The notes under the pieces: generated by a model
Databases searched by the model: none
The model's input: the letters and a program-made list of their open reading frames with translations, nothing else
Told to the model about the DNA's origin: nothing
Position numbers and translations under genes: made by a program
NCBI GenBank assembly: GCA_003247185.1
Contig: QKAV01000051.1
Location: forward strand, 1 to 56,309
Length of the DNA stretch: 56,309 nucleotides
Source of the DNA: Crocinitomicaceae bacterium
Lineage (GTDB): Bacteria > Bacteroidota > Bacteroidia > Flavobacteriales_D > Crocinitomicaceae
Direction: 5' to 3'
In this document: positions 1 through 24,581 of the stretch, one piece after another
How positions within the stretch are numbered: the stretch's first letter is position 1
How the letters are laid out: every line of letters starts with the position of its first letter

Positions 1-887
1 AATTTTGGTATGATCGCATCACCCCATCTGTGGAACAGACCCATACTTAAACTGGACGGTTTGTTTCTTCCGGTCATTTTAGAGCCTTCTGTTAATGTGT
101 ATCGGTAGTACATTCCATACTGAAGTTCCATTGCAGATCCCTGATAGTTAAAATATACGGCAGGCATTACAGATCCTGGAGAATTACCTATTCCAATCAA
201 ACTATTTGCAAAGACTGTCATGCGCATTTTTAGTTTTTCATTTCCATTTTCAATGAACCCGAAATTTGGGTTATTTACATGAAAAAATGCCACTCCCGCA
301 TTGATTACGCGTTTGTTATTTTGGGTCATATATCCTTCCCCGACACGATTTGTATATAGGATTCCTGCTCCTGCATCCATATAACCGAATGATGCCGAAT
401 TGAATGTTTCTCCCGAAGCTATGGAAGCATCATACGAACTACCGTTATATTGCGAAGCCCACATTCCATTATTTGCGGACAAGGCTCTTTGACCATATCC
501 TCCATAGATTCCCAAACCGATTGTATTTTCCCTGTCCAAAAGCAAATGGTACGCGAGGTTGATGGATACATTCGTTGTACTCACACGGTTATCACCCGAA
601 TTATCATTGTAAAAATTAATACCCCCTGCTATGATACCTTTCTTCTGAAATTGGTTTTCGTTGAATCGGGCATCGTATGAGGCTGAAATCGTGTTGTAAG
701 GAGAAGCAACGCTATTCCATTGGGTACGATAGTTTACGATCCCCATCATTGGCGCATTGGCACCTGCTAAAGCCGGATTCAGGTTAAAAGGTGCATTTTC
801 CACTTGCGAAAAGTGTACATCCTGTGCAACGGAAATCGTTGTGATTAAAAGTGCTGCAACTGAGTTAATTATTTTTAGTGATCTCAT
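1..887 (-). CDS. PorP/SprF family type IX secretion system membrane protein (3' end truncated by window edge)
   Basis: Minus-strand frame from ATG at 887 reads MRSLKIINSVAALLITTISVAQDVHFSQVENAPFNLNPALAGANAPMMGIVNYRTQWNSV..., the typical PorP/SprF N-terminus (signal peptide, FSQ, NPALAG, YR.QW). Absent from the ORF track because its stop lies outside the window. Confidence 0.88.
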   Translation of the reverse strand, partial: MRSLKIINSVAALLITTISVAQDVHFSQVENAPFNLNPALAGANAPMMGIVNYRTQWNSVASPYNTISASYDARFNENQFQKKGIIAGGINFYNDNSGDNRVSTTNVSINLAYHLLLDRENTIGLGIYGGYGQRALSANNGMWASQYNGSSYDASIASGETFNSASFGYMDAGAGILYTNRVGEGYMTQNNKRVINAGVAFFHVNNPNFGFIENGNEKLKMRMTVFANSLIGIGNSPGSVMPAVYFNYQGSAMELQYGMYYRYTLTEGSKMTGRNKPSSLSMGLFHRWGDAIIPK

Positions 888-903
888 AATCTGGATATTG
901 GCA

Positions 904-3900
904 TTATCTTACTAGTGTTATATTTCCCGATGTCTCAATAACATCTCCGTTACTTTTCATGACATATAAGGTGTAAACAAACGTCCCTTCCTGAACAGGT
1001 TTTCCTTTGTATGTTCCATCCCAGCAAATTTCATTTTGCTGTCCGGACGTACTGCTGTAAGTACTCGCTGTCTCAAAGACCATTTCTCCCCATCTGTCAA
1101 ATACTCTGAATTGGATTTCTGTGATGCATTCTCCATAAACACACAAGTATTCGTTTGCTGAAGGACCGGTACCATTCGGTGAGAAGATCGTCGGAACAAA
1201 TAATTCTGCACAATCTTTTTCGACAACAATAAGTACGCTATCGCTTCCCGTACAACCCAGAGCATCTGTTCCTGTTACGATGTACAGAGTAGTTTGGTCA
1301 GGAGTTGCGATCGGATTTGCACAATCAGAACAACTCAATCCGGTGGAAGGTGTCCATACATACGTGTCCGCTCCTGTTGTGGTAATGTCTACACTTGACC
1401 CGCTTGTAATAGTTGCATTGTCTGGCGTCGCATCTACTCCCAGATTTCCTGAATTGGAAACAGTATAGTTTTCTGTGCTTGTACATCCATTGTCATCTGT
1501 TATGGTAACCGAGTAACTTCCTGCCGTCAGTCCTGAAATACCTGAAGTTGTTTCACCGTTCGGAGTCCAGCTATAGGTATAATTTCCAGACCCTCCAGTA
1601 GCATTCAATGTAACGCTTCCAAGGGTTGAATTGGAGCAGTCCACGTCTGTAGCAGCACCATTTCCTGCAATGGATTGAGGTTCGGTGATTGTCCAGTTGT
1701 CTGTGGAGCTACAACCGAGGTTGTCAGTAACAAGAACGGTATAACTTCCAGGAGTAAGTCCTGTAACATCATCAGTTGAGCCTGCATTTGGAGTCCAGCT
1801 GTATGTGTATGGTGCCTGTCCGCCCGTGATCGTTAAATAAATAGCTCCGTCACTGTCACCATTACAAGTTACATTAAACAGTGAGTCAAGAGTAATAACC
1901 GGTGCTCCTGCAACAGGGTCTACGGTGTAGGAAGTAACGGAAGAAGTTGTACAACCTGTGTTAACGTCCTGAACTGTTATTGTATATGATCCGGTAGTTA
2001 ATCCGGTAAATGAAGCAGATGTCTGATAATTTATTCCATCGATACTATACGTGTAATTTGAACCGATCGGATCAGTTACGTCTATAGTTCCTGTTGGAGT
2101 AGAACAGGTTGGCTGTGTTACTGTTCCTGTTGGAGCGGTAGGCCCTGAAGGAATCGGATCAACGGTAGCAGATGAAGAGGTACTTGAAGTACACCCTGCT
2201 GCATTGGTTACCGTAAATGTGTAGGATCCTGAACTTAACCCGGAAACAGTTGCTGTCGTACCCGTACCAGTTTGTGTCGCCCCACCTGGAGTTGTTGTAA
2301 TCGTCCATGATCCTGACGCAGGTAAACCACTTAGATCTATACTTCCCGTAGTATTGATACAATCGGGCTGTGTAATGGTTCCGATTATTGGAGCCGAAGG
2401 AGTTGCCGGTTGAGGATCAATAATAACGTTTGATGAACTTCCGGATACGCATCCTGATGCATCCTCTACAGTAAAAGTATAGGTGGTGTTAGCTGTCAGA
2501 CCTGAAATGGTAGTTGTAGTTCCTGTACCAGTTTGTGTCGCTCCACCTGGAGTTGTTGTGATTGTCCATGTTCCTGATGCAGGTAGTCCGCTAAGATCAA
2601 CGCTTCCTGTTGCAGTGGAACAATCCGGTTGAACAATATTACTGGTCAACGGCGCAGATGGTGCTGAAGGTACAGTGTTAATGACAGCATTTGTTGAAGA
2701 CGTTGAAGTACATCCCGCCGCATTCGTAACTGTAAAAGTATAGGTGGTTCCTGCTGTTAAACCGGTGAAAGTAGCAGTAGTACCTGTTCCAGTTTGCGTT
2801 GCACTACCTGGGGTAGCAGTAATCGTCCATGATCCTGACGCAGGTAAACCACTTAGATCAACACTTCCCGTAGCAACGCTACAAGTAGGTTGAGTAATGG
2901 TTCCGATAACCGGTGCTGTCGGTGTTGCAGGTTGCGCGTTAACTACCGCATTGGCTGATGAACCGGAAGTACACCCTGCTGCATTGGTTACAGTAAATGT
3001 ATAGGTGGTATTATCTGTAAGACCTGAGATAGTAGCAGTAGTACCTGTACCCGTTTGTGTTGCTCCTCCTGGAGAAGTGGTAATTGTCCATGTTCCTGAT
3101 GCAGGTAAACCACTTAGATCAACGCTTCCTGTGGCAACGCTACACGTAGGTTGAGTAATGGTTCCGATAACTGGTGCCCCCGGAGCTGCCGGAATAGTAT
3201 TGATTACAACGTTTCCTGTCGATCCGGAAACACATCCGCCTGAATTAGTTACAGTGAATGTGTAGGTTGTACCAGCCGTAAGACCGGTGAAAGTAGCCGT
3301 AGTTCCTGTTCCGGTTTGTGTTGCACCACCCGGATTTGCAGTAATCGTCCACGTTCCTGACGATGGTAAGTTTCCAAGGTCTACGCTTCCGGTTGTATTT
3401 ATACAATCCGGTTGAACAATATTACTTGTTGTAGGAGTGGAAGGAAGCGAAATAATGGTGTTTGTGAAGTTCTCAGTACATGTTGTTCCGTTGTAGGTAA
3501 TACCAACACTAACATTAAAATTCTGATTGCTTCCGGTCGTGTTAGTTGGGGTATATGTAAATGTCTGACCTGAACCGGAAGTTGGAGAAGCTGAAGTTCC
3601 TCCGGGTGCAGTTACGGTCCAGTTGTAGGTTGCTCCCGTTGATGGTAAAGCTTCAAAATCAAAGGCTGTTCCACTACAAGCAGGAGTGGTAGCAGTAATT
3701 TGGTTCGCTCCCGGAACTGTTACAGTAACCGTATTGGAAGTTGTTTCGCATCCTGTTGTTCCTGCAATAACCTGAAACTGATACGTGCCTTGTGCAGCAC
3801 CACTTGTGTTAATTGTTAATACATCTGTGGTTCCGTTTGCGTAGGTGAATCCTGCAGGAGAACTGTTAGTAACATTTTCCCATGTCCCTCCGTTATTGTA

Positions 3901-5502
3901 TTGCCATTGGTATGGCCCGCCTGACGCTACTACCGATAACACATCAGAATCCGTAGAACACATTGTATTGTCCGTTGGCTGAGTTGTGATCGTTGGAGCA
4001 GTACATACGGTATAAGAACATTGCACGGAGGTTGCGGGTGTAACACTGGCAACAGTCAGGGCAAGGGTTTGAGGTCCGACAGTACCTGTCCAAACATTAT
4101 AGTACGGATCCGCGACTGTTGTAGGTCCAGCTGATGCACTTGGTGTAAATGAGGTTGGTGCACAACCGGATAATGGCGTATCCCCTGAAGGATCTGTTTT
4201 TATTACATGATAATCATAGTTCGCAGCCCCTGTAGTCATTGAGGTCATGATATAACCTCCGTCTGATGTTTGGGACCCTCTAGGCAGAAGAGTGGCAAGA
4301 CTAAAAGTGTAGTATTTTGCCCAAACATTGGATGTTGCGGTACTGTTTACACGATGCAGGGAGTTTGAAAAGACAAAACTCAAAGGTTTAATATACATCC
4401 CCATTGTAACCAGGTCTGTTCCTCCTGCTACTTCGTATATCTGTGAATTGTCAACGGGGTCCGTTCCGAAAAAGCTGGATGAGTAAGTAAAATCCCTGCT
4501 GAATGTCAATCCCCAACCTCCACTTGACGGATATTTAGTGATCCACTCTTTGCTGTTATCATAACCTACAGCTATCGGAGCGCCGGCACTTGTTTTGTTG
4601 ATTGCACCGAAATATTTGCTACTCTGACTCGAACTGAAACTTATGGCATCGAACTGCTTGTGGTAAGTTATAGTTCCTGCAGTAGTTGTTTTTAGTAGAA
4701 TTGCATCAGTTGGAGATTGGTCATTACAGTCGTTACTCGGATCCGGATTCCAATCATTAACATCATAACTACCAACAGCAATATAACCATCGGATACCTC
4801 TACTACGTCCACGAATGAAGCGTCATTATAAATCCGGTCAGTGGCATTCTTGGCTGCGTTGTTGTAATATCTGAAAACTTTGTGCCACAGGTGATTCCCG
4901 TTGTTATCCATTTTAACAATAAGTGGTGAACCGAAATATTCTGTATGAGAGTCACCATTGGAGTCGGTACAGTTTTGCGATGCATAATATATTTCTGCTC
5001 CTCCACCGTCAGGGTCATACCCGATGACATATCCGACAGCAACATACCCCCCGTCTGAAGCCTTAATCACACGGTTAAAGTAAGCGCCATCCGCCTGACT
5101 AATGGAAAATTTGGTTGATGCAAGAACATTACCCGTAGCATCTATTCGCATAAATACTCCGGCATTCGATTCACTACCTCCACAGAGATAATATTCACTG
5201 TTTGCCGCATCTTTTTTGATGTCATTTAACTGAAAGCCTATTGAACCGTCATAATACCTTTTCGACCATACCAGGTTTCCTATATCGTCGATTTGAGTTA
5301 CCGTACCATAAATAGGCAGGAAGTTAAGGTTGGTTCCTGCAAATACATAATTTGAATTCGTTAATGCTTCCACTGCATTTCCCGGAAGATCAAACAGTGC
5401 CTGATCATAATTTACCCGAAAGGCATTTGTGGTTTGTGCTTCTGCCTGAGTGTACAAAAGCACTGAAAAAACTGAAATTAGTAGTAGTCTTATTTTCTTC
5501 AT
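904..5502 (-). CDS. Giant T9SS surface protein: N-terminal repeats, five ~87-aa Ig/Fn3-like tandem repeats, SprB-like repeats, gliding-motility-associated (type B) C-terminal domain
   Basis: 1532-aa ORF with signal peptide (MKKIRLLLISVFSVLLYTQAEAQ), tandem repeats QPxCxxxTGSVDLSGLPASGTWTIT, and C-terminus FVPTIFSPNGTGPSANEYLCVYG...FRVFDRWGEMVFET...GTYKGKPVQEGTFVYTLYV. Confidence 0.92.
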   Translation of the reverse strand: MKKIRLLLISVFSVLLYTQAEAQTTNAFRVNYDQALFDLPGNAVEALTNSNYVFAGTNLNFLPIYGTVTQIDDIGNLVWSKRYYDGSIGFQLNDIKKDAANSEYYLCGGSESNAGVFMRIDATGNVLASTKFSISQADGAYFNRVIKASDGGYVAVGYVIGYDPDGGGAEIYYASQNCTDSNGDSHTEYFGSPLIVKMDNNGNHLWHKVFRYYNNAAKNATDRIYNDASFVDVVEVSDGYIAVGSYDVNDWNPDPSNDCNDQSPTDAILLKTTTAGTITYHKQFDAISFSSSQSSKYFGAINKTSAGAPIAVGYDNSKEWITKYPSSGGWGLTFSRDFTYSSSFFGTDPVDNSQIYEVAGGTDLVTMGMYIKPLSFVFSNSLHRVNSTATSNVWAKYYTFSLATLLPRGSQTSDGGYIMTSMTTGAANYDYHVIKTDPSGDTPLSGCAPTSFTPSASAGPTTVADPYYNVWTGTVGPQTLALTVASVTPATSVQCSYTVCTAPTITTQPTDNTMCSTDSDVLSVVASGGPYQWQYNNGGTWENVTNSSPAGFTYANGTTDVLTINTSGAAQGTYQFQVIAGTTGCETTSNTVTVTVPGANQITATTPACSGTAFDFEALPSTGATYNWTVTAPGGTSASPTSGSGQTFTYTPTNTTGSNQNFNVSVGITYNGTTCTENFTNTIISLPSTPTTSNIVQPDCINTTGSVDLGNLPSSGTWTITANPGGATQTGTGTTATFTGLTAGTTYTFTVTNSGGCVSGSTGNVVINTIPAAPGAPVIGTITQPTCSVATGSVDLSGLPASGTWTITTSPGGATQTGTGTTATISGLTDNTTYTFTVTNAAGCTSGSSANAVVNAQPATPTAPVIGTITQPTCSVATGSVDLSGLPASGSWTITATPGSATQTGTGTTATFTGLTAGTTYTFTVTNAAGCTSTSSTNAVINTVPSAPSAPLTSNIVQPDCSTATGSVDLSGLPASGTWTITTTPGGATQTGTGTTTTISGLTANTTYTFTVEDASGCVSGSSSNVIIDPQPATPSAPIIGTITQPDCINTTGSIDLSGLPASGSWTITTTPGGATQTGTGTTATVSGLSSGSYTFTVTNAAGCTSSTSSSATVDPIPSGPTAPTGTVTQPTCSTPTGTIDVTDPIGSNYTYSIDGINYQTSASFTGLTTGSYTITVQDVNTGCTTSSVTSYTVDPVAGAPVITLDSLFNVTCNGDSDGAIYLTITGGQAPYTYSWTPNAGSTDDVTGLTPGSYTVLVTDNLGCSSTDNWTITEPQSIAGNGAATDVDCSNSTLGSVTLNATGGSGNYTYSWTPNGETTSGISGLTAGSYSVTITDDNGCTSTENYTVSNSGNLGVDATPDNATITSGSSVDITTTGADTYVWTPSTGLSCSDCANPIATPDQTTLYIVTGTDALGCTGSDSVLIVVEKDCAELFVPTIFSPNGTGPSANEYLCVYGECITEIQFRVFDRWGEMVFETASTYSSTSGQQNEICWDGTYKGKPVQEGTFVYTLYVMKSNGDVIETSGNITLVR
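2116..3414 (-). repeat. Five tandem ~261-bp coding repeats (four of 87 aa, last of 85 aa)
   Basis: The T[CT]GTCC core recurs at 2301, 2562, 2823, 3084 and 3345, exactly 261 bp apart; each unit encodes QP[TD]C..TG[SV].DL..LP.SG.WTIT..PG.ATQTGTGTT... Confidence 0.93.
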
Positions 5503-5560: not shown

Positions 5561-5568
5561 CAAATTTA
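5561..5568 (-). promoter_or_regulatory. Bacteroidota -7 box TAAATTTG for the 904..5502 gene
   Basis: Plus strand CAAATTTA = TAAATTTG on minus, 59 nt upstream of the start codon; matches TAnnTTTG. Confidence 0.55.
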
Positions 5569-5591: not shown

Positions 5592-5609
5592 GGAGGGTTT
5601 CCCCCTCAA
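5592..5609 (-). promoter_or_regulatory. Shared upstream element, copy 1 (TTGAGGGGGAAACCCTCC)
   Basis: 17/18 identical to 8987..9004, with the same 23-bp gap to the -7 box. Confidence 0.6.
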
Positions 5610-5633
5610 TTTGACATAATGATTTTAACAGTT

Positions 5634-8600
5634 TTAGCGTACAATTGTGATATTTCCTGACTTTTCAATTATTGTATCATCAAATAAGCGTGCATAAATG
5701 GAGTACACATAACTTCCTTCCTGAACAGGTTTACCTCTGAATGTTCCATCCCAGCATATCGTGCTTTTGTCTGCAGAGTTCGATAAATAAGCCTCATCTG
5801 TTTGGAAAACCAATTCTCCCCATCGATCAAATACTTTAAAATTAAGTTCGGAAATACAATTACCATAGACACACAGATATTCATTGGCACTTGGACCGCT
5901 TCCGTTAGGAGAGAACATTGTTGGCACAAAAAGATCTGCACAATTAATTTCCACATAAATAGTAACCGTATCTGCTCCAGTACATCCGGAAAGATCAGTA
6001 CCCGTGACAATATAGGTAGTCGTTACTTCCGGAGATGCGATCGGGCTTGCGCAGTCTGAACAACTTAGTCCGGAACTTGGAGTCCAGGTATATGTATTGG
6101 CACCGGAAGCAGTCAGAATTACCTGCTCACCAGATGTTATAGTAGCTGAACCGGGTGATACAACAACAGGAATTCCTCCAGTAACATTCACTGTATAAGT
6201 GGAAGATGTACTACAGCCATCCTGATCTGTAACCGCAATGGTATAATTGCCGGCAGTTACATTTGAAAGGCCGGTAGTAGTTTCCCCTCCGGGAGACCAT
6301 AAGTAAGTATAGTTCCCTGCTCCTCCTGTTGCTGAAACTGAAACCGCTCCGTTAGATTGACCGCAGTCTTCATCTGTAATGGATTCAGTTAATACAATCT
6401 GCGAAGGTTCTCCGATTGTAACTGTTTCTACCGAAACACAACCTATGGCATCAGTAACAGCAATTGTATAAGTACCAGCAGTCAGGTTAGCAGCTGTAGC
6501 TGCAGTTCCTCCTGTAGGACTCCATGCATAAGTATAGGGAGAAGTTCCTCCTGTAGCGGAAACTGTAGCGGTACCATCAGCAGCTCCGAAACATGAAGCA
6601 TCAGTGGTGTTGGAAATTGAAAGTGTCGGACCTCCGTTAGTTGGAACTACAATATTGATCACTTCTGAACAGGTATTTGCATCAGTTACAGTTACGGTAT
6701 ATGATCCGCCAGGTATGTTATTCGCGGTAGCTGCTGTACCTCCTGTAGGCGACCAGTTGTAGGAGTATGGAGCAGTTCCTCCGGTAGCTGTAACAGTTGC
6801 TTGTCCATCATTGGATCCGCACGTTGCGGCCACAATGTTGCTTGAAGAGAGTTGAAGTGCTGCCGGTTCATTGATCGTGATATTCAAAACGTCCGTACAG
6901 CCTGAAGCATCGGTTACAGTTACAGTATAGGTTCCCGCTGATAATGAGGATTGAACGGCACCACTCAGTGAACCCGGCATCCAGTTGTAAGAATAAGCAG
7001 GTGTCCCTCCGGTTGTTGAAACAGTAGCAGCGCCATCGTTCGCGCCATTACAGGTAATATCTGAACTACTTTGTAATGTTAAAGCCGGTCCGTTTGTATT
7101 GCTGATTGTTGCTGAACCATTTGCGGTACATCCGTTTGCATCTGTTACCACAACAGTATAAGTTCCGGCAGCTAGTGATGAGACGGATGATGAAGTTGCT
7201 CCTCCCGGATTCCATAAATAAGAAAGACTACCTGTTCCACCTGATGCAGATACGCTGACACTTCCATTCGCTTGTCCACATGAAGCAGGTGTGGAATTTG
7301 TGTTGAGCGTTATTACTGTAGGTTCATTGATTGTAACCGTTGTACTTCCCGGGCAAAGATTGGCGTCTGAAACGCTTATCGTATATGTGCCCGGAGCTAA
7401 ATTGCTTTGGCTTGCACCATTCAGGTTTCCTGGAGTCCAGGTGTAAGTGTATCCTGGAGTTCCTCCTGAAGCAGAAGCCGTTGCAGAACCATCAGTTAAG
7501 CCATTACAACTGATGTCATTCACACCGGACATGGTAATGGTTATTGTTGGACATGCAGAACAGCTTGGGATATTATTCAGATCAGGGATAGTAATAATAG
7601 TTCCCACAGCATCTTCCACCTGAAGTGGATAATTTGTAGTTGGTGTTACAGTTGTTCCGGTAGCGAATACCTGGTAACCTGCCGGAACCGAACAACTAGT
7701 GGCTGGTGTAAAGCCATTCAGACAAGTCCCTCCGAACCAGGTATAACCACAGTTCTGACATTCGGTCTGATTCGTTATCGGTGTTGACCCGCCGGCACTC
7801 CATTCACTCCACGTAAACGGACCTGTTCCGCCATTTACGGTTAGATCACCATTTGATTCCATACAGACATCCATACATGGTGCAACGGTAATATCATAGG
7901 AAGTGGAGGTGCCACAAGTTGCATTAAATGTGATGGTATGTACTCCGAATCCTGCAACAGAAGGATCAAAAACCCCGGTACTTGCATTAATTCCTGTTCC
8001 GGACCACGTTCCGGAAATTGTTGTGGAACAGTTACTTATTCCAGGACTGGCGGTGTAGTTTGTTGGACCGTCAGAAGGACATAAGGACTGCGGACCTTGA
8101 ATTTCAACATAGCAGCATTGGTTTTGTTCAATGCTAACATCATCAATGAAATAATAGGCAAAGTAATTTCCAAATCCGTTACCGTTTGCACTGGCGTGGT
8201 TCGTGGTCGCATCATCATGGAAGTTCCCGATAATAAAGTACTGTTCTCCACCGGCAGCAACATAATCCCATTGTAAACGCACCCAGTTCATGGTGTCACT
8301 CAGGACACCACACGTGTTTTCCAGTTGTGGCGTTACATTGAGCTGAGATCCCTGTGAGCATGCATCTCTTAAATAATGGGTATTCGAAAAATAGACACCT
8401 AAGTCTTCAACTGCGTACGGAGAGCCGTCTGCGAGACTAACGTAAAAGGAAACGCAATAGGTTTGTCCTGCTACCAGAGGGCTTGTAGTATGCCCTTGAA
8501 TATATTCTCTGTAGTGATCTTCAATACCGAAAGGAGCAGAATAGGCGATTAAACCAACGTGTCTCGTTCCTGTTCTGGAATATTGCCATCCAATACCAAA

Positions 8601-8894
8601 TGAAGTGGCATTAGGCATATTAGTTGCGGCAATATTACACGCTGAAAACAGATCGGGAGAGGAGCAGCTATCTCCCGGAATATTTGAATTTGCATTATCC
8701 CAGGAAGGATCTAAGTCCTGACGAAAACCTTCACCTCCAAAATTTGAACAATTGGTATTGGTGATTTCGAAACTGGGGTTTACCACTAAATTTTGAGCAA
8801 AAACAGTTACTCTTACAGACACTGTAAGTAGAAACAGTGTCAACAGCAGAAGAAATTTACTTCTATTAAATAGTTGTAGCTGATTTTTTTTCAT
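5634..8894 (-). CDS. SprB-repeat surface protein with gliding-motility-associated (type B T9SS) C-terminal domain
   Basis: 1086-aa ORF with signal peptide, N-terminal LVVNPSFEI module, six SprB-like repeats (SGGTPGYTYTWTPG...GTYTISVSDANLC), C-terminus FVPTMFSPNGSGPSANEYLCVYGNCISELNFKVFDRWGELVFQT. Confidence 0.93.
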   Translation of the reverse strand: MKKNQLQLFNRSKFLLLLTLFLLTVSVRVTVFAQNLVVNPSFEITNTNCSNFGGEGFRQDLDPSWDNANSNIPGDSCSSPDLFSACNIAATNMPNATSFGIGWQYSRTGTRHVGLIAYSAPFGIEDHYREYIQGHTTSPLVAGQTYCVSFYVSLADGSPYAVEDLGVYFSNTHYLRDACSQGSQLNVTPQLENTCGVLSDTMNWVRLQWDYVAAGGEQYFIIGNFHDDATTNHASANGNGFGNYFAYYFIDDVSIEQNQCCYVEIQGPQSLCPSDGPTNYTASPGISNCSTTISGTWSGTGINASTGVFDPSVAGFGVHTITFNATCGTSTSYDITVAPCMDVCMESNGDLTVNGGTGPFTWSEWSAGGSTPITNQTECQNCGYTWFGGTCLNGFTPATSCSVPAGYQVFATGTTVTPTTNYPLQVEDAVGTIITIPDLNNIPSCSACPTITITMSGVNDISCNGLTDGSATASASGGTPGYTYTWTPGNLNGASQSNLAPGTYTISVSDANLCPGSTTVTINEPTVITLNTNSTPASCGQANGSVSVSASGGTGSLSYLWNPGGATSSSVSSLAAGTYTVVVTDANGCTANGSATISNTNGPALTLQSSSDITCNGANDGAATVSTTGGTPAYSYNWMPGSLSGAVQSSLSAGTYTVTVTDASGCTDVLNITINEPAALQLSSSNIVAATCGSNDGQATVTATGGTAPYSYNWSPTGGTAATANNIPGGSYTVTVTDANTCSEVINIVVPTNGGPTLSISNTTDASCFGAADGTATVSATGGTSPYTYAWSPTGGTAATAANLTAGTYTIAVTDAIGCVSVETVTIGEPSQIVLTESITDEDCGQSNGAVSVSATGGAGNYTYLWSPGGETTTGLSNVTAGNYTIAVTDQDGCSTSSTYTVNVTGGIPVVVSPGSATITSGEQVILTASGANTYTWTPSSGLSCSDCASPIASPEVTTTYIVTGTDLSGCTGADTVTIYVEINCADLFVPTMFSPNGSGPSANEYLCVYGNCISELNFKVFDRWGELVFQTDEAYLSNSADKSTICWDGTFRGKPVQEGSYVYSIYARLFDDTIIEKSGNITIVR
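6160..7530 (-). repeat. Six SprB-like repeats of alternating A/B type
   Basis: Repeat cysteine motifs in order: SCNGLTDG, SCGQANG, TCNGANDG, TCGSNDG, SCFGAADG, DCGQSNG, each followed by a GG..xYxYxW..G and GxYT..VTD..GC pattern. Boundaries approximate. Confidence 0.85.
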
Positions 8895-8909
8895 CTAATA
8901 ATAGCGTTT

Positions 8910-8950
8910 AAACTGCTTGGTCAACGAATAAATCGTTAAAGCAGAAGTTT
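8910..8950 (-). other. Leader stem-loop upstream of the SprB-repeat gene
   Basis: Nested inverted repeats AAAC/GTTT, TGCTT/AAGCA, AACGA/TCGTT around loop ATAAA; begins about at the TSS expected from the -7 box at 8956..8963. Confidence 0.5.
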
Positions 8951-8955
8951 GGGCG

Positions 8956-8963
8956 CAAAGTTA
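8956..8963 (-). promoter_or_regulatory. Bacteroidota -7 box TAACTTTG for the 5634..8894 gene
   Basis: Plus strand CAAAGTTA = TAACTTTG on minus, 62 nt upstream of the start codon. Confidence 0.55.
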
Positions 8964-8986
8964 CTATTAGAATAAGCTTGTTTTTG

Positions 8987-9004
8987 GGAGTGTTTCCCCC
9001 TCAA
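8987..9004 (-). promoter_or_regulatory. Shared upstream element, copy 2 (TTGAGGGGGAAACACTCC)
   Basis: 17/18 identical to 5592..5609, with the same 23-bp gap to the -7 box. Confidence 0.6.
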
Positions 9005-17250: not shown

Positions 17251-17276
17251 GATTGATTAGATCTGGCTTGCTACAT

Positions 17277-20200
17277 ATGAAAACTACAGCATTATTTATG
17301 CTGACTACTTTGTTCTCCTGGGCACAGGACGACAGTACTTTGCTTTATCCGATTAATCAGACTTATGATCCAACGCAAACTTCAGAACAAAGCTTTGACC
17401 TCGGGGATCCGTCCAGCATGCAGCAAACCATCGTGTATGATCCTGCTACCGGAACGTATGTCTTTAAAGAAACTCTTGGTAACGGATTAAATTACCGTAA
17501 TCCATCGATGATGACTTTCGAGGAATATCTTGAATACGAACGTCAGAAATCATTGAGAGAGAACTGGAAGGAAAAAATTGATGAGCAAACTGCAGAAAAT
17601 CATCCTTTCGAGTTGCCGATCAAAGTAGGGAGTAAGGTGTTTGAAAACTTCTTTGGTTCCGATCAGATTGTCATTCGTCCTCAGGGAAGTGTGGAATTGT
17701 CATTTGGGATTAACAGCTCAAGATACGATAACCCGATTCTTCCTGTAAAGCAGAGAAAAATAACGCGTTTTGATTTCCAGCAACAGATTCAATTGAACCT
17801 TGTTGGTCAGATTGGTACGAAGCTAAAAATCGGAACCAGTTACAATACTCAAGCGGCATTCGATTTTGACAATATCTCGAAATTGGAGTACGCCGGCGAT
17901 GAGGATCAGATCATACAGAAAATTGCACTGGGTAATGTGTCATTGCAACTTCCGACCTCATTGATTCCCGGTTCTCAAACCTTATTCGGGGCAAGTACAC
18001 AGTTAAAGTTCGGTAGAACAACAGTGGATTTGATTGCAGCTTCTTCGAAAGGGAAAAGACAGGAAATTAATATTACCGGAAAAGCACAGGTGCGTGATTT
18101 TAAGCTGGGGGCAGATGATTACGAGGCGTATCGCCATTACTTTGTGAACTTGTATTTCCATGATCATTATGATGAGGCAATGTCAACGCTTCCGATCCCT
18201 AATACAACGATAAATATTACGAGAATTGAAGTTTGGCTGACAAACAAGACGAACAATACGGAAAACACCCGGAATATTGTTGCTTTCTCGGATCTTGGGG
18301 AAGCAAAGTCCGAAAACTGGGATGGTAATCCCGGATCCACTGCTTCGAGTGAAATTCCGGATAATAGCGCCAACAATTTGTATCAGTGGGCATCCAATCA
18401 ACCGCTCGTTCGAAGCTTTAATAACGCTGTTGCAGCGCTGAGTTCTCAAGTGACATCACCTGGACCATTTGATCAGGCTGTTCATTATGAGAAGGTTGAA
18501 AATGCAAGAAAATTAACCGAACAGGAGTTTACATACAATGCACAGCTGGGATACATCTCGCTCAATCAACCATTGAACAATGATGAGGTATTGGCAGTTG
18601 CTTATGAATACACCTACAGAGGAGAAACATATCAGGTTGGAGAATTCTCTACCGATGGTGTTTCCGGTTCAGAAGCGCTGGTGTTAAAACTATTGAAACC
18701 GACAATCATGAATCCGAGAAAAAGAATCTGGGATCTCATGATGAAAAATGTCTATTCGATTGGTGCATACCAGGTGGATCAACAAGGGTTTAAACTGAAT
18801 GTTTTATACAATAACCCGGAAACATCTGTATTAGTGCCATTTTTCCCAATGACAGGAGTGGATGACAAACAGCTGGTGACGCTTCTGGATATGGATAAAA
18901 TCAATATTACCAATCAGCCTTTTTCTGATGGGGTATTCGATTTTGTCCCGATTGATTTTAATGGAAACAAAGCGCAAAATGCAGGTACCATTAACGTTAA
19001 GAACGGACGGGTATATTTTTCTACCATAGAGCCATTCGGACAGACATTAGCAGGTAAATTGACTACCGCAGGTATTTCCGACCTGATCATTAACAATGTA
19101 GCTTATACGGAATTATACGATTCGACAAAAACGGCCGCGCAACAGATTCCGAGTAAAAACCGATTCACACTTGTTGGACAATACCAATCCTCGATTTCTT
19201 CGGACATTCCTTTGAATGCATTGAATGTCCCTGAAGGTGCCGTTACTGTAACAGCAGGAGGAATTAAACTTACCGAAGGTGTGGACTATACGGTTGATTA
19301 TAACCTGGGCCGCGTAAAGATTCTGAATACAGGGATTCTGGAATCGAATACACCGATTAAGATTGCGATAGAAAGTAACTCGGTTTTTGGTTTCCAGGCA
19401 AAATCACTGTTCGGAGCGAGGGTGGCACACAGGTTTAGCGATAAACTGAATGTAGGAATGACCTGGTTGAGAATGATGGAACGTCCCGTTACTCAAAAAG
19501 TCGACATTGGTAGTGAGCCGTATAAAAACAATATTGTTGGTCTGGATCTTCAGTATAGAACCGATGTGCCTTTCCTTACAAAACTGGTAGATTTACTTCC
19601 GGTAATTTCCACCAAAGAGAAGTCAACGTTCTCCTTCAACGGTGAGTTTGCCCACCTGATGCCGGGGGTGCCAAAGGCGATTAACAAAGACGGAACCTCT
19701 TATATTGACGATTTTGAGGGAGCACAATCTTCTATCGACTTAAGATCTGTATCTGCATGGCGTTTGGCATCAATTCCGCAAGGGCAACCGGATCTTTTCC
19801 CAGAGGCAACTAAAAAGGATTTGTCAGCAGGTTATAAGCGTGCAAAAACGTCCTGGTATACAATCGACCCATTATTTTATCAGAATAATAATACAACTCC
19901 TCAACATATTAAGGATGATCCTACGATGTTGAGCGATAGCCGTATGCGTCTGGTAAACCAAACGGACATTTTCCCGAACCTGCAACAACAATACGGTTCA
20001 ATTCCAAACATTCCGATCCTTGATCTGGCGTACTATCCGAAAGAGAGAGGAATGTACAATTACGATACAACAGCTACGGTAAATGCGGATGGAACTTTTG
20101 TTGATCCGGAAAACCGTTGGGGTGGAGTGATGCGTGCACTGACAACCACGAACTTTGAACAAACAAACATCGAATACATCCAGTTTTGGGTACTCGATCC

Positions 20201-23200
20201 ATTTAATGAGGATGCCGAAGATGCAGATCCGAATTCTGCAATGACCGGAGGGGATTTGTATTTCAACCTTGGAAACATTTCCGAAGATATATTGCCAGAT
20301 TCAAGAAAATCATTTGAAAACGGATTGCCTCCTACAGGTGTATCAACTACAGATAATCTGGATACAACATTGTGGAGTAGAGTTTCTACCCAACAAGTTG
20401 TGGTAAATGCCTTTGATAATGATCCCAATGCACGTCTGAATCAGGATATTGGTATTGATGGGTGGAACAGTGCCGATGAGAAAGTACAGTTTGCGAACTT
20501 TGCCAATTGGGTGCAAAATAATCCGGTTTTTTCTGCTGAAACTAAAGCTGCACTGCTCGCCGACCCGTCAAGTGATGACTATAACTTCTATCGTGACGAC
20601 GATTACGACGCTCAGAAATTAAATATTCTGGAACGTTATAAGCGATATAATGGTATGGAGGGGAACTCCCACACAACCGAATATTCGCAAACGCTGAACG
20701 CTGATGGTTATCCTACGCAGGCTACGAACAACCCGGACAGAGAGGACATCAACCAGGATAACAACTTGTCGGAGTCAGAAAGCTACTTCCAGTATCGTGT
20801 AAGTATGCGCCCGCAGGATATGGTCGTTGGTAAGAATTTTATTACCAACATGCAGACTTATCAGAACGGTACAAAGACGGAGAAATGGTACCAATTTAAA
20901 GTACCTGTAAGGGAATTTGAGAAAAAGGTAAATGGAATTTCTGATTTCAGATCGATTCGTTTCATGCGAATGTTCCTGAAAGACTTTGATGAAGAAGTAG
21001 TATTACGTTTTGCACGTCTGGAATTTATCCGCGGAGAGTGGAGAAGGTATTTCAATGATTTGACGCAGCCGGGGGAAAGTGTTTATGTTGACCCGAATCT
21101 GACGACATTCAACATCGGAGCGCTTAACGTTCAGGAAAACGATCAAAGAAGTCCGATAAAATATGAAATTCCTCCTGGAATTCTTCGTGAGGTAGACCCT
21201 TCACAAACTTTCCAACGCCAGTTGAATGAACAATCATTAACGTTGGAGGTATGTAATCTGGCTGATGGAGATGCCCGTGCGGCTTATCGAAATGTAGAGT
21301 TCGATGTGCGTACATACAAGAAACTGAAAATGTTCGTCCACGTTGAAGAGAAGGATAAAGTAAATTATTCTCTGGACAATGATGACCTGACATTATTTGT
21401 ACGTCTGGGAACCGATTTCACCGACAACTATTATGAATACGAGTTGCCGATGACAGTTACTCCATGGGGTGCGACGGTTGATACGGATATCTGGCCGGAA
21501 GCCAATAATATGGAGATCATATTTGATGATCTGATTACATTAAAAAAGGAGCGTAATGCTAAGATTGAATCCGGAGCAAGTGGTGTTTCTTACATTATTG
21601 AATACTCGAAAGTTGATCCGGCTAATCCGAATCGAATCATTAGGGTGAAAGGTTCGCCGAATATCCAGGGATTAAAGACAATCATGGTTGGAGTACGAAA
21701 TCCGCATAAGAATTCACATGTACTTGACTCATGGTCGGATGACGGAGAAGCAAAATGCGCGATCGTTTGGATCAATGAGTTGCGTCTGACAGATTTCGTA
21801 AATGATGGAGGCTCCGCTGCGATTGCACAAATGCAGGTACAGGCGGCAGATTTCGCTACGGTGAACATGAGTGGAAATTACTCCGGAATTAACTGGGGTG
21901 CCGTTGATAGTAGAGTACAGGAAAGACAACGGAACACGAAAATGGGATTTGATATGAACGCGAATGTTCAGTTAGGTCAGTTCTTTGGAAAGAAAGCCCG
22001 TTTCAATTTACCGTTCTTCTATGCTTATTCATTAGGAGTAGTTAACCCGGAATATGATCCGTTCAATCCGGATGTAAAACTGGCCGGCTATGACAGGGAT
22101 ACCCGAAAGGAAAGACAAAGGTTAGGTCAGGATTACAATGAAAGGCGATCGTACAACTTTACGGGAGTTCGAAAGGAACTGAAGGCAGGAGCTAAACCGG
22201 CATTCTGGCGCGTTTCCAACTGGACAGCTAATTATTCGTTCTCTGAGAATTTGCTTCGCGACTTTAATACAAACTATGACAGAACGAAAACATGGAGCGG
22301 TGGTTTAAGCTATAATTATTCGTTCAATGTAAAACCAATTACACCATTTGCGAAGATTAAGTTTGTTCAAAAGTCAAAATGGTTGACTTTTGTGAAGGAT
22401 TTCAACTTCTATCTGGCACCTAAGAACATCGGTTTCACAAATGACCTGTTAAGAACCTATAACGAGCGACAAATCCGAAATAACCTGGTGCCTGATTATC
22501 AGTTTGATCCGGTTTATGTGAAACGCTTTACATGGAACAGGACGTTTACGCTTGGATACGATATCACGAAGAAACTGAAGTTTAACTTCAATGCTTCTAA
22601 TCAATCCATCTTCCAGGAAGCCGATGGTAGAGTGGACAGAAAGATCGATCCTGTTGGTTATCGCCAGTTTGAGGATTCTGTTTTCACACAATTGAAAACC
22701 TTAGGTAGAGGCTTGGATTATAACCACTCATTTACTTTAAACTGGACGTTACCGCTGGATAAATTACCTGTAACGGATTGGATTAATGCCAACGTTAAAT
22801 ACACGGGTAGCTACAATTGGCAACGAGCTCCACTCGGTCAGAGTGAATTCGGGAATGTTATTCAAAACAGTCGAAATATCAACATGACTGCGCAGGCGAA
22901 TTTCACCAACTTGTACAACAAAGTACCATATTTCAAGCGCGTAAATAATAACGGAAGAACAGGTAATGCAAGGTCAAATGTAAGAGGGCAGCTTGTTTCC
23001 GGAGGAGTTTCGGATGGAGATAAGGACACGAAAAAGGGTGAGCCGGAAGTAAGTCCGGAGGATGAAAAACCGGAGTCGGAAATGACGAAGAAGGAACTCC
23101 GCAAGAAGAAGCGTAAGGAAAGAAAGGAGGAACGTAAGAAGAAGCGGGAAGAAGCCAGAAAGAAACGAAACGGAGAAGTACATCCTGTAGGTGGATTCCT

Positions 23201-24581
23201 TGCGAGATTAGTGATGAGTGTCCGAAATGTTTCCGGAACTTATGGAATCACAGACGGAACGCTATTACCGGGATACAATCAGGAGACATCTCTACTGGGA
23301 TTAAATCGATCATTCGATTCAGGTCTTTCCGGTTTTGTATTCGGACAGCAACCGTACTCTGTTTTTGGTAGACAAAACGGATATGATATTGCTTCTGTAG
23401 CTACTTCCAATAACTGGTTGGTGCAGAACGAAAATCTGAATAAGCAGTATACTCAGAATCACTCTGAAAATCTGAATATCAGAGCAACATTGGAACCGTT
23501 TAAGGATTTCTCGATTGAGATGACCTTCACAAGAACCTACTCAAACAACCGTAGTTCATTCTACAGATGGAATGAAAGCACACAAACGTTTGAAGATCAA
23601 AGTAGAGTGGATATGTCAACGTTAACGTATTCCAACGTTTCATTGAGTTCTGCCTTTGCACTGATTGGTAAAGAGTATGAATCATCTGTTTTTGATCAAC
23701 TTTTAGCGAATCGTAAAGAAGTGTCTTCATTGCTGGGTGCTACTAATTCGAATTCATCCGCATTGACTTCAGGGTATTACAACGGTTACTCAGGTTCACA
23801 ACAGGAGGTAGTGATCGGGTCATTCCTGACTTCATATACAAACAGAGGTGTTAATGAGAAAAACATCAACCCTGTTAAGAATGTACCACTACCGAACTGG
23901 TCTGTGAATTACAACGGGTTAAAGAATTTTGAGTTCATGAAAAAGCACGTAAGAAACTTCGTTCTTCGCCATGCATATAGTTCAACTGTCTCGGTTTCCG
24001 GAATGCAAACAAATTTGAACGCTGAGTTTGATGCGAATGGTCAGGCTACCGCGAGAGATCTCAATAACAACTTTATCGCTTCCATGAACGTTCAAAACGT
24101 TGCCGTAACTGAGCGATTCTCACCTCTGATTGGTCTGGATGCAACATGGAATATCAAGGGACAGGGATTAATCACGAAGTTTGAGTACAAAAAAGATCGT
24201 TCAGCTACACTTTCATTGAACAACAATCAGGTTACCGAAGTTTTGGGTAATGAGTGGGTAATCGGTACGGGATATAAATTCGGTAAAGTGAAATTGCCGA
24301 TTAAGAATGTTAAGGAAAATGATTTGAACGTACGTGTTGATGTGTCGTTCAGAGATAACCTGACTGTGATTCGTAAGATTGTTGAGAACACCAATCAAGC
24401 TACTGCAGGACAGCGCGTAGTTTCTATTAAGTGTTCTATTCAATATGATCTGACGAATAACCTGACGATCCAGTATTACTACGATCAAACATTGAATACA
24501 CCAAAAATTGCAACCTCTTATCCGACAGGTAACTTATCTACGGGGCTTAGACTCCGATTCAATCTGGCGGGAGTTCAATAA
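17277..24581 (+). CDS. sprA: SprA, T9SS outer-membrane translocon (Sov homologue)
   Basis: About 2430-aa ORF with SprA hallmarks: DPSSMQQTIVYDPATGTYVFKETLGNGLNYRNPSMMTFEEYLEYE, SYIDDFEGAQSSIDLRSVSAWRLASIP. Start set at MKTTALFM; ORF track begins at TTG 17253. Confidence 0.95.
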   Translation: MKTTALFMLTTLFSWAQDDSTLLYPINQTYDPTQTSEQSFDLGDPSSMQQTIVYDPATGTYVFKETLGNGLNYRNPSMMTFEEYLEYERQKSLRENWKEKIDEQTAENHPFELPIKVGSKVFENFFGSDQIVIRPQGSVELSFGINSSRYDNPILPVKQRKITRFDFQQQIQLNLVGQIGTKLKIGTSYNTQAAFDFDNISKLEYAGDEDQIIQKIALGNVSLQLPTSLIPGSQTLFGASTQLKFGRTTVDLIAASSKGKRQEINITGKAQVRDFKLGADDYEAYRHYFVNLYFHDHYDEAMSTLPIPNTTINITRIEVWLTNKTNNTENTRNIVAFSDLGEAKSENWDGNPGSTASSEIPDNSANNLYQWASNQPLVRSFNNAVAALSSQVTSPGPFDQAVHYEKVENARKLTEQEFTYNAQLGYISLNQPLNNDEVLAVAYEYTYRGETYQVGEFSTDGVSGSEALVLKLLKPTIMNPRKRIWDLMMKNVYSIGAYQVDQQGFKLNVLYNNPETSVLVPFFPMTGVDDKQLVTLLDMDKINITNQPFSDGVFDFVPIDFNGNKAQNAGTINVKNGRVYFSTIEPFGQTLAGKLTTAGISDLIINNVAYTELYDSTKTAAQQIPSKNRFTLVGQYQSSISSDIPLNALNVPEGAVTVTAGGIKLTEGVDYTVDYNLGRVKILNTGILESNTPIKIAIESNSVFGFQAKSLFGARVAHRFSDKLNVGMTWLRMMERPVTQKVDIGSEPYKNNIVGLDLQYRTDVPFLTKLVDLLPVISTKEKSTFSFNGEFAHLMPGVPKAINKDGTSYIDDFEGAQSSIDLRSVSAWRLASIPQGQPDLFPEATKKDLSAGYKRAKTSWYTIDPLFYQNNNTTPQHIKDDPTMLSDSRMRLVNQTDIFPNLQQQYGSIPNIPILDLAYYPKERGMYNYDTTATVNADGTFVDPENRWGGVMRALTTTNFEQTNIEYIQFWVLDPFNEDAEDADPNSAMTGGDLYFNLGNISEDILPDSRKSFENGLPPTGVSTTDNLDTTLWSRVSTQQVVVNAFDNDPNARLNQDIGIDGWNSADEKVQFANFANWVQNNPVFSAETKAALLADPSSDDYNFYRDDDYDAQKLNILERYKRYNGMEGNSHTTEYSQTLNADGYPTQATNNPDREDINQDNNLSESESYFQYRVSMRPQDMVVGKNFITNMQTYQNGTKTEKWYQFKVPVREFEKKVNGISDFRSIRFMRMFLKDFDEEVVLRFARLEFIRGEWRRYFNDLTQPGESVYVDPNLTTFNIGALNVQENDQRSPIKYEIPPGILREVDPSQTFQRQLNEQSLTLEVCNLADGDARAAYRNVEFDVRTYKKLKMFVHVEEKDKVNYSLDNDDLTLFVRLGTDFTDNYYEYELPMTVTPWGATVDTDIWPEANNMEIIFDDLITLKKERNAKIESGASGVSYIIEYSKVDPANPNRIIRVKGSPNIQGLKTIMVGVRNPHKNSHVLDSWSDDGEAKCAIVWINELRLTDFVNDGGSAAIAQMQVQAADFATVNMSGNYSGINWGAVDSRVQERQRNTKMGFDMNANVQLGQFFGKKARFNLPFFYAYSLGVVNPEYDPFNPDVKLAGYDRDTRKERQRLGQDYNERRSYNFTGVRKELKAGAKPAFWRVSNWTANYSFSENLLRDFNTNYDRTKTWSGGLSYNYSFNVKPITPFAKIKFVQKSKWLTFVKDFNFYLAPKNIGFTNDLLRTYNERQIRNNLVPDYQFDPVYVKRFTWNRTFTLGYDITKKLKFNFNASNQSIFQEADGRVDRKIDPVGYRQFEDSVFTQLKTLGRGLDYNHSFTLNWTLPLDKLPVTDWINANVKYTGSYNWQRAPLGQSEFGNVIQNSRNINMTAQANFTNLYNKVPYFKRVNNNGRTGNARSNVRGQLVSGGVSDGDKDTKKGEPEVSPEDEKPESEMTKKELRKKKRKERKEERKKKREEARKKRNGEVHPVGGFLARLVMSVRNVSGTYGITDGTLLPGYNQETSLLGLNRSFDSGLSGFVFGQQPYSVFGRQNGYDIASVATSNNWLVQNENLNKQYTQNHSENLNIRATLEPFKDFSIEMTFTRTYSNNRSSFYRWNESTQTFEDQSRVDMSTLTYSNVSLSSAFALIGKEYESSVFDQLLANRKEVSSLLGATNSNSSALTSGYYNGYSGSQQEVVIGSFLTSYTNRGVNEKNINPVKNVPLPNWSVNYNGLKNFEFMKKHVRNFVLRHAYSSTVSVSGMQTNLNAEFDANGQATARDLNNNFIASMNVQNVAVTERFSPLIGLDATWNIKGQGLITKFEYKKDRSATLSLNNNQVTEVLGNEWVIGTGYKFGKVKLPIKNVKENDLNVRVDVSFRDNLTVIRKIVENTNQATAGQRVVSIKCSIQYDLTNNLTIQYYYDQTLNTPKIATSYPTGNLSTGLRLRFNLAGVQ

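Follow-up and report, generated by a model that had tools for sequence, protein, structure and literature searches.

The 18-bp element that precedes each of two giant T9SS surface-protein genes is no chance similarity but a genuine control site, conserved across a family of aquatic bacteria. Both copies lie in the window, i.e. the whole stretch of 56,309 nucleotides that was analysed (contig QKAV01000051.1 of a Crocinitomicaceae bacterium). We put at about 80% the probability that the element is the operator of a NarL/LuxR-family response regulator at a primary-sigma promoter, with a regulon of adhesins and small RNAs. Since the element is nearly confined to species that carry this regulator, it is probably the hallmark of a switch, not described so far, that acts on surface adhesins and on some small RNAs. 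The timing of giant T9SS adhesin production in Bacteroidota is little known, and the one control system found described, PorXY-SigP, concerns the secretion machine. A defined site on the DNA, one named candidate regulator and a few target operons now become available for testing in a cultured strain such as Fluviicola chungangensis (L045). A literature search, with subscription journals mostly outside its coverage, retrieved no earlier account of the element.

Two matching elements in the window

The features concerned are the following (window coordinates):

3..887, minus strand: PorP/SprF-family T9SS membrane protein (TIGR03519 4.4e-37, PF11751 3e-29)
904..5502, minus strand: giant T9SS type-B surface protein, 1532 aa, with SprB repeat, Ig_7 and CHU_C (domain search)
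5561..5568, minus strand: -7 box TAAATTTG, 23 bp downstream of element 1
5592..5609, minus strand: 18-bp operator-like element 1, TTGAGGGGGAAACCCTCC (PWM score 29.5, top in the window)
5634..8894, minus strand: T9SS type-B surface protein with SprB repeats, 1086 aa (PF13573 9.7e-54, PF13585 4.5e-8)
8956..8963, minus strand: -7 box TAACTTTG of the TAnnTTTG type, 23 bp downstream of element 2
8987..9004, minus strand: 18-bp operator-like element 2, TTGAGGGGGAAACACTCC (PWM score 26.6)

The two elements, both on the minus strand, agree at 17 of 18 positions with a single differing one, and exactly 23 bp separate element and TAnnTTTG -7 box in both copies, as an earlier sequence-only reading had it. 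That reading gave 59 and 62 nt from box to start codon, which is one too many in each case: the bases in between number 58 and 61, the ATGs starting at 5502 and 8894. It had also seen no further copy, and a search that allowed up to 3 mismatches indeed recovered elements 1 and 2 only, with a chance expectation of 0.07 matches in the window and no shuffled version containing two; the next unrelated site reached a PWM score of 3.8. In the whole draft genome (2.74 Mb, 76.6% complete) the same tolerance yielded the window pair at 0 mismatches and then four places at 3 mismatches, the reversed control pattern likewise giving four, and near-exact copies were found nowhere in this draft except in the window pair. 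One of the 3-mismatch places immediately follows the gene for the candidate regulator's orthologue, discussed below; the others (L004, L005, L006) were rejected as being at control level. As a side observation, the place at L006:1501-1518 (G000 C211:11708-11725) repeats letter for letter TTGAGGGGGGAACACTTA, the sequence of the site next to the regulator; it precedes a gene resembling thiamine-monophosphate kinase and is followed at 52 bp by TAAATTTG, and by count stands at chance level.

The identification of both genes as T9SS surface proteins was borne out by the presence of CHU_C (type B) and SprB repeats. In the window the CHU_C C-terminal domain is followed by a PorP/SprF gene: ORF 3-887, which runs off the contig end, lies behind ORF 904-5502, and the same gene order occurs in four relatives (L057, L085, L047, L043). 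The genome contains 39 CHU_C matches above cut-off, of which only 2 lie behind a near-exact element; the element thus marks a subset of the type-B proteins and not all of them. Sampled 3-kb CHU_C loci of this genome, in which the promoters were only partly covered, contained no element (best PWM 7.5). For a 2.7-Mb draft, 39 CHU_C matches represent a very large T9SS type-B repertoire. The window also contains, on the plus strand, an ORF of 2442 aa (17253-24581).

That the two window sites are alike through tandem gene duplication, with no regulatory meaning, is suggested by the adjoining position of the two genes and by the gene order in G010, where the orthologue of ORF 904-5502 directly follows the acyl-CoA dehydrogenase gene, so that ORF 5634-8894 may have been inserted or may have arisen by duplication (this neighbour is conserved in G010, G027 and G004). 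We nevertheless regard this explanation as very improbable: the flanks of the two elements are unrelated apart from the shared element, as had been noted before, and element plus spacing recur at unrelated T9SS genes and at non-coding transcripts in at least ten genera. As the sole explanation duplication is refuted by both 240-genome family scans presented below.

The element is an inverted repeat, which in element 1 reads GAGGG-N5-CCCTC. The repeat could terminate transcription of the gene before it or act as a hairpin in the RNA, given that GAGGG...CCCTC is able to pair and that the site often occurs soon after a stop codon, but it is not followed by a T-run, its spacing to the -7 box is strict, both L020 and the window (~9055-9020) have separate terminator-like hairpins with T-runs upstream of the site, and in L106 the site is divergent and stands in front of the regulator gene. 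These observations make a terminator or hairpin extremely improbable.

Recurrence in related genomes and the genes behind the sites

The sequence-only reading had proposed a genome-wide search, with scattered matches or loss at orthologous loci counting against it. The matches are not scattered: they lie ahead of T9SS surface-protein genes, with a fixed -7 spacing, in at least ten genera, and the element is retained at orthologous loci of relatives. A strict scan of 240 genomes of the family (TTGAGGGGGNNNCMCT-N20-28-TAnnTTTG, with the reversed pattern as control) gave 19 places in 17 genomes and 7 genera, against 0 for the control; a looser one (up to 3 mismatches, fixed spacing) gave about 60 places in 46 of the 240 genomes and 12 genera, against 9. 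In the order set of 306 genomes, which includes other families, up to 2 mismatches yielded 36 places and 0 controls. The exact pattern matched 22 times among 84,980 named genomes, and 19 of these matches were judged real, all of them in Bacteroidota, including Fluviicola chungangensis, Brumimicrobium and Crocinitomicaceae MAGs. The matches in Shewanella (L042), Haliotispira (L062) and a soil Bacteroidetes MAG (L059), with no recognisable T9SS gene downstream, were attributed to chance, as were weak matches in genus g43.

The consensus from 50 distinct sites is wTTGAGGGGGyArCCCTCTw plus TAnnTTTGY, and some genomes have a fuller palindrome, TTGAGGGG-N4-CCCCTC. In a tally that allowed 21-23 bp only, the spacing over these sites was 22 bp in 42, 23 bp in 5 and 21 bp in 3; most relatives thus have 22 bp, versus 23 bp in the window. 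Bacteroidota have TAnnTTTG as their primary-sigma -7 consensus (PMC7366714), and their primary-sigma promoters combine -7 TAnnTTTG with -33 TTTG (PMC7366714, PMC2483708), the latter box being necessary for full activity and not essential (PMC2483708). The -7 box is shared with these promoters, whereas here the 18-bp element replaces the -33 TTTG. With its fixed -7 spacing and its coverage of the -33 region the element could be what an alternative sigma factor recognises at -33. We hold this to be highly unlikely, because the -7 box has the ordinary primary-sigma form TAnnTTTG, sigma elements are not usually 18-bp inverted repeats, and the gene that tracks the element encodes a response regulator.

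The genes downstream of the sites mostly encode T9SS surface proteins or PorP/SprF, some of them DUF7948 proteins, and the products begin with signal-peptide-like sequences; the CHU_C and PorP/SprF pairing was encountered in relatives as well. A T9SS sorting domain or PorP/SprF was recognised in 15 of the 16 full-length downstream proteins scanned (among them that of L057, which scores below the curated cut-off), and the remaining one, in L108, matches no family. Relatives of ORF 904-5502 (29-75% identity, tblastn) were found directly behind the element in many genera, and relatives of ORF 5634-8894 behind it in L093 and L053. In several Fluviicola-group genomes the gene behind an intact element promoter appears broken by stops or frameshifts (L045:3591-3800, L111 reverse strand 1445-1700, L025, L027, L029, L049); in L061 this gene (MARNNLLLL..) encodes 1043 aa.

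The earlier suggestion, a site for a transcription factor or an alternative sigma that defines a regulon of surface adhesins, is supported by the family-wide scans, the spacing and the targets. Of its two versions, the transcription factor is preferred to the sigma factor on the strength of the primary-sigma -7 box, the inverted repeat, and the co-occurrence and linkage with a NarL-type regulator described below. The proposed regulon would also include non-coding transcripts, and it takes in only a subset of the type-B CTD genes.

A NarL-type response regulator as candidate binder

Beside many sites lies a gene for a 219-aa response regulator with a GerE HTH, in which Response_reg (PF00072, 3e-23) and GerE (PF00196, 4.4e-12) both score above cut-off. 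In the window's genome a kinase with HisKA_3 and HATPase_c is encoded directly upstream of it; the kinase motif also precedes the regulator in some g29, g30, g34 and g38 genomes, and was not seen upstream of it in the other genomes within the locus DNA examined. With a profile (A1) built from element-adjacent regulators, and for that reason leaning towards the element-linked clade, the window's genome was found to have a single clear orthologue (326.7 bits, next 122.8), and an orthologue (>250 bits; next paralogues ≤198) is present in 53 of the 240 family genomes.

The distributions of element and regulator largely coincide: both were found in 41 family genomes, the element alone in 6, the regulator alone in 12 and neither in 181, i.e. 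the orthologue occurs in 41/47 element genomes versus 12/193 others (Fisher 6e-29). A within-genus permutation, which lessens without removing the effect of phylogenetic relatedness and in which the genomes are drafts, gave a mean of 28.6 and a maximum of 36, so that none of 20,000 permutations reached the observed 41. The six genomes with the element alone comprise five with the weak matches in genus g43 and one that is 79% complete (G141); in the twelve with the regulator alone, several of them in genus g36, the element is absent by the patterns used. Within genera the same genomes have both parts (5/10 in g25, 11/14 in g29).

In 31 of the 53 genomes, from 10 genera, the regulator gene has a site no more than 1.3 kb away, often 2-100 bp past its stop codon, and the arrangements vary: directly behind the regulator, divergent (L106) or convergent (L045, L111). 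In the window's genome the site is located 11 bp behind the orthologue; it is degenerate (PWM 14.5 versus 26.6-29.5), has the opposite orientation and lacks a -7 box at 22 bp. No element was found near the paralogous response regulators of this genome (best PWM 4.6).

These observations also bear on a rival in which the element is the operator of another transcription factor, and the NarL-type regulator is merely a regulon member or a carried-along neighbour. Co-occurrence and adjacency would look alike in that case, a binder and a co-regulated neighbour being inseparable by co-occurrence, and the site lies mostly behind the regulator gene, unlike classical autoregulation, where it lies in front. 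We consider this rival unlikely: the regulator is itself a DNA-binding protein, almost all genomes with a true element have it, including those in which its gene is not beside the adhesin gene, and element and regulator are kept or lost together within genera. In addition, the C-terminal segment of the regulator (GGSN/GESN versus DARNN) goes with position 12 of the site (A/T/C versus mostly G), a match that derives from few independent events and is no more than suggestive.

With the NarL-type regulator as the preferred binder, the element (consensus TTGAGGGGGyArCCCTCT) would occupy the position of the -33 box, 22-23 bp upstream of TAnnTTTG, where a phosphorylated regulator dimer would bind and most likely activate the primary-sigma RNA polymerase. 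This would switch on operons for large T9SS surface adhesins and their PorP/SprF partners and, in many relatives, also a short non-coding transcript beside the regulator's own gene. What the sequence data show directly is the element with its spacing and conservation, the kinds of target, and the co-occurrence and linkage with the regulator; binding by this regulator, activation rather than repression, and a function of the short transcripts as sRNAs are inferred. Activation appears likelier than repression because the -33 TTTG, the box described as needed for full activity (PMC2483708), is missing, and the inverted repeat would fit a dimer-binding activator.

Predicted short transcripts and resemblance to known systems

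Many sites have no gene downstream and are followed by a leader of about 50 nt and then a strong hairpin with a T-run; in genera g25, g27 and g29 the leader contains ATTTAACTTACTACTAC. Promoter and terminator signals suggest that these gene-less regions are transcribed. Nine short-transcript loci gave 0 Rfam matches over the gathering score. In the window's genus a different conserved block, TTTAGGTAATACGTTGAATAGTAGTTATAGTC, ends in a terminator behind the regulator, the adjacent site is reversed and lacks a -7 box at 22 bp, and two relatives (L011, L012) have a TAnnTTTG at a distance of 37 bp from it. This block and terminator behind the response regulator can be seen in L159 (2141-2400), L156 and L148.

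The nearest parallel is a GacA-like logic, although the family-membership tests fail. GacA (UvrY/SirA family) acts through a palindromic upstream activating sequence at the rsmX/Y/Z sRNA genes of Gammaproteobacteria (PMC7911923, PMC2375449); the likeness consists of a NarL-family regulator, a palindrome of 18 bp that precedes the promoter and short non-coding RNA targets. It differs in the sequence of the site, in the large T9SS surface-protein operons that are targets here as well, and in the position of the site beside the regulator gene. The L003 regulator reached 100.6 bits (9.5e-29) against a GacA/UvrY equivalog cut-off of 280, and no CsrA/RsmA match was found in the window's genome, which is incomplete. 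If the proposed role of the transcripts is true, they would constitute a new response-regulator-driven small-RNA class in Bacteroidota.

PorXY-SigP of Porphyromonas gingivalis controls the secretion-machinery (por) genes through an ECF sigma factor (PMC4800418, PMC8265659). The likeness is a two-component control of T9SS-related genes in Bacteroidota, and the difference is that machinery genes and an ECF sigma are involved there and surface adhesins here. The regulator scored 45.3 bits against a cut-off of 300 for the PorX equivalog NF052313, in the receiver domain only.

CTACTAC-type words occur in 18 of 50 element transcripts versus 20 of 383 background starts. Part of the TTTAGGTAATACGTTGAATAGTAGTTATAGTC block (TAGTAGT) is the complement of CTACTAC words near the starts of adhesin mRNAs, a pairing that is not significant. 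When the regulator-adjacent RNA was ranked by duplex energy against 35 window genes, ORF 904-5502 came 8th and ORF 5634-8894 fell outside the top ten, which leaves a pairing between this RNA and the adhesin mRNAs unsupported. It is a tentative and rather doubtful idea that the regulator might control adhesins twice, at their promoters and via short RNAs that mimic or partner the adhesin mRNAs sharing CTACTAC, in a Gac/Rsm-like manner without CsrA. Finally, a Brumimicrobium genome (L086, reverse strand, 1455 and 1734) has two element promoters in tandem. A separate short transcript and terminator belong to each of them, and the pair follows the regulator gene and a small conserved gene whose product resembles a membrane protein.
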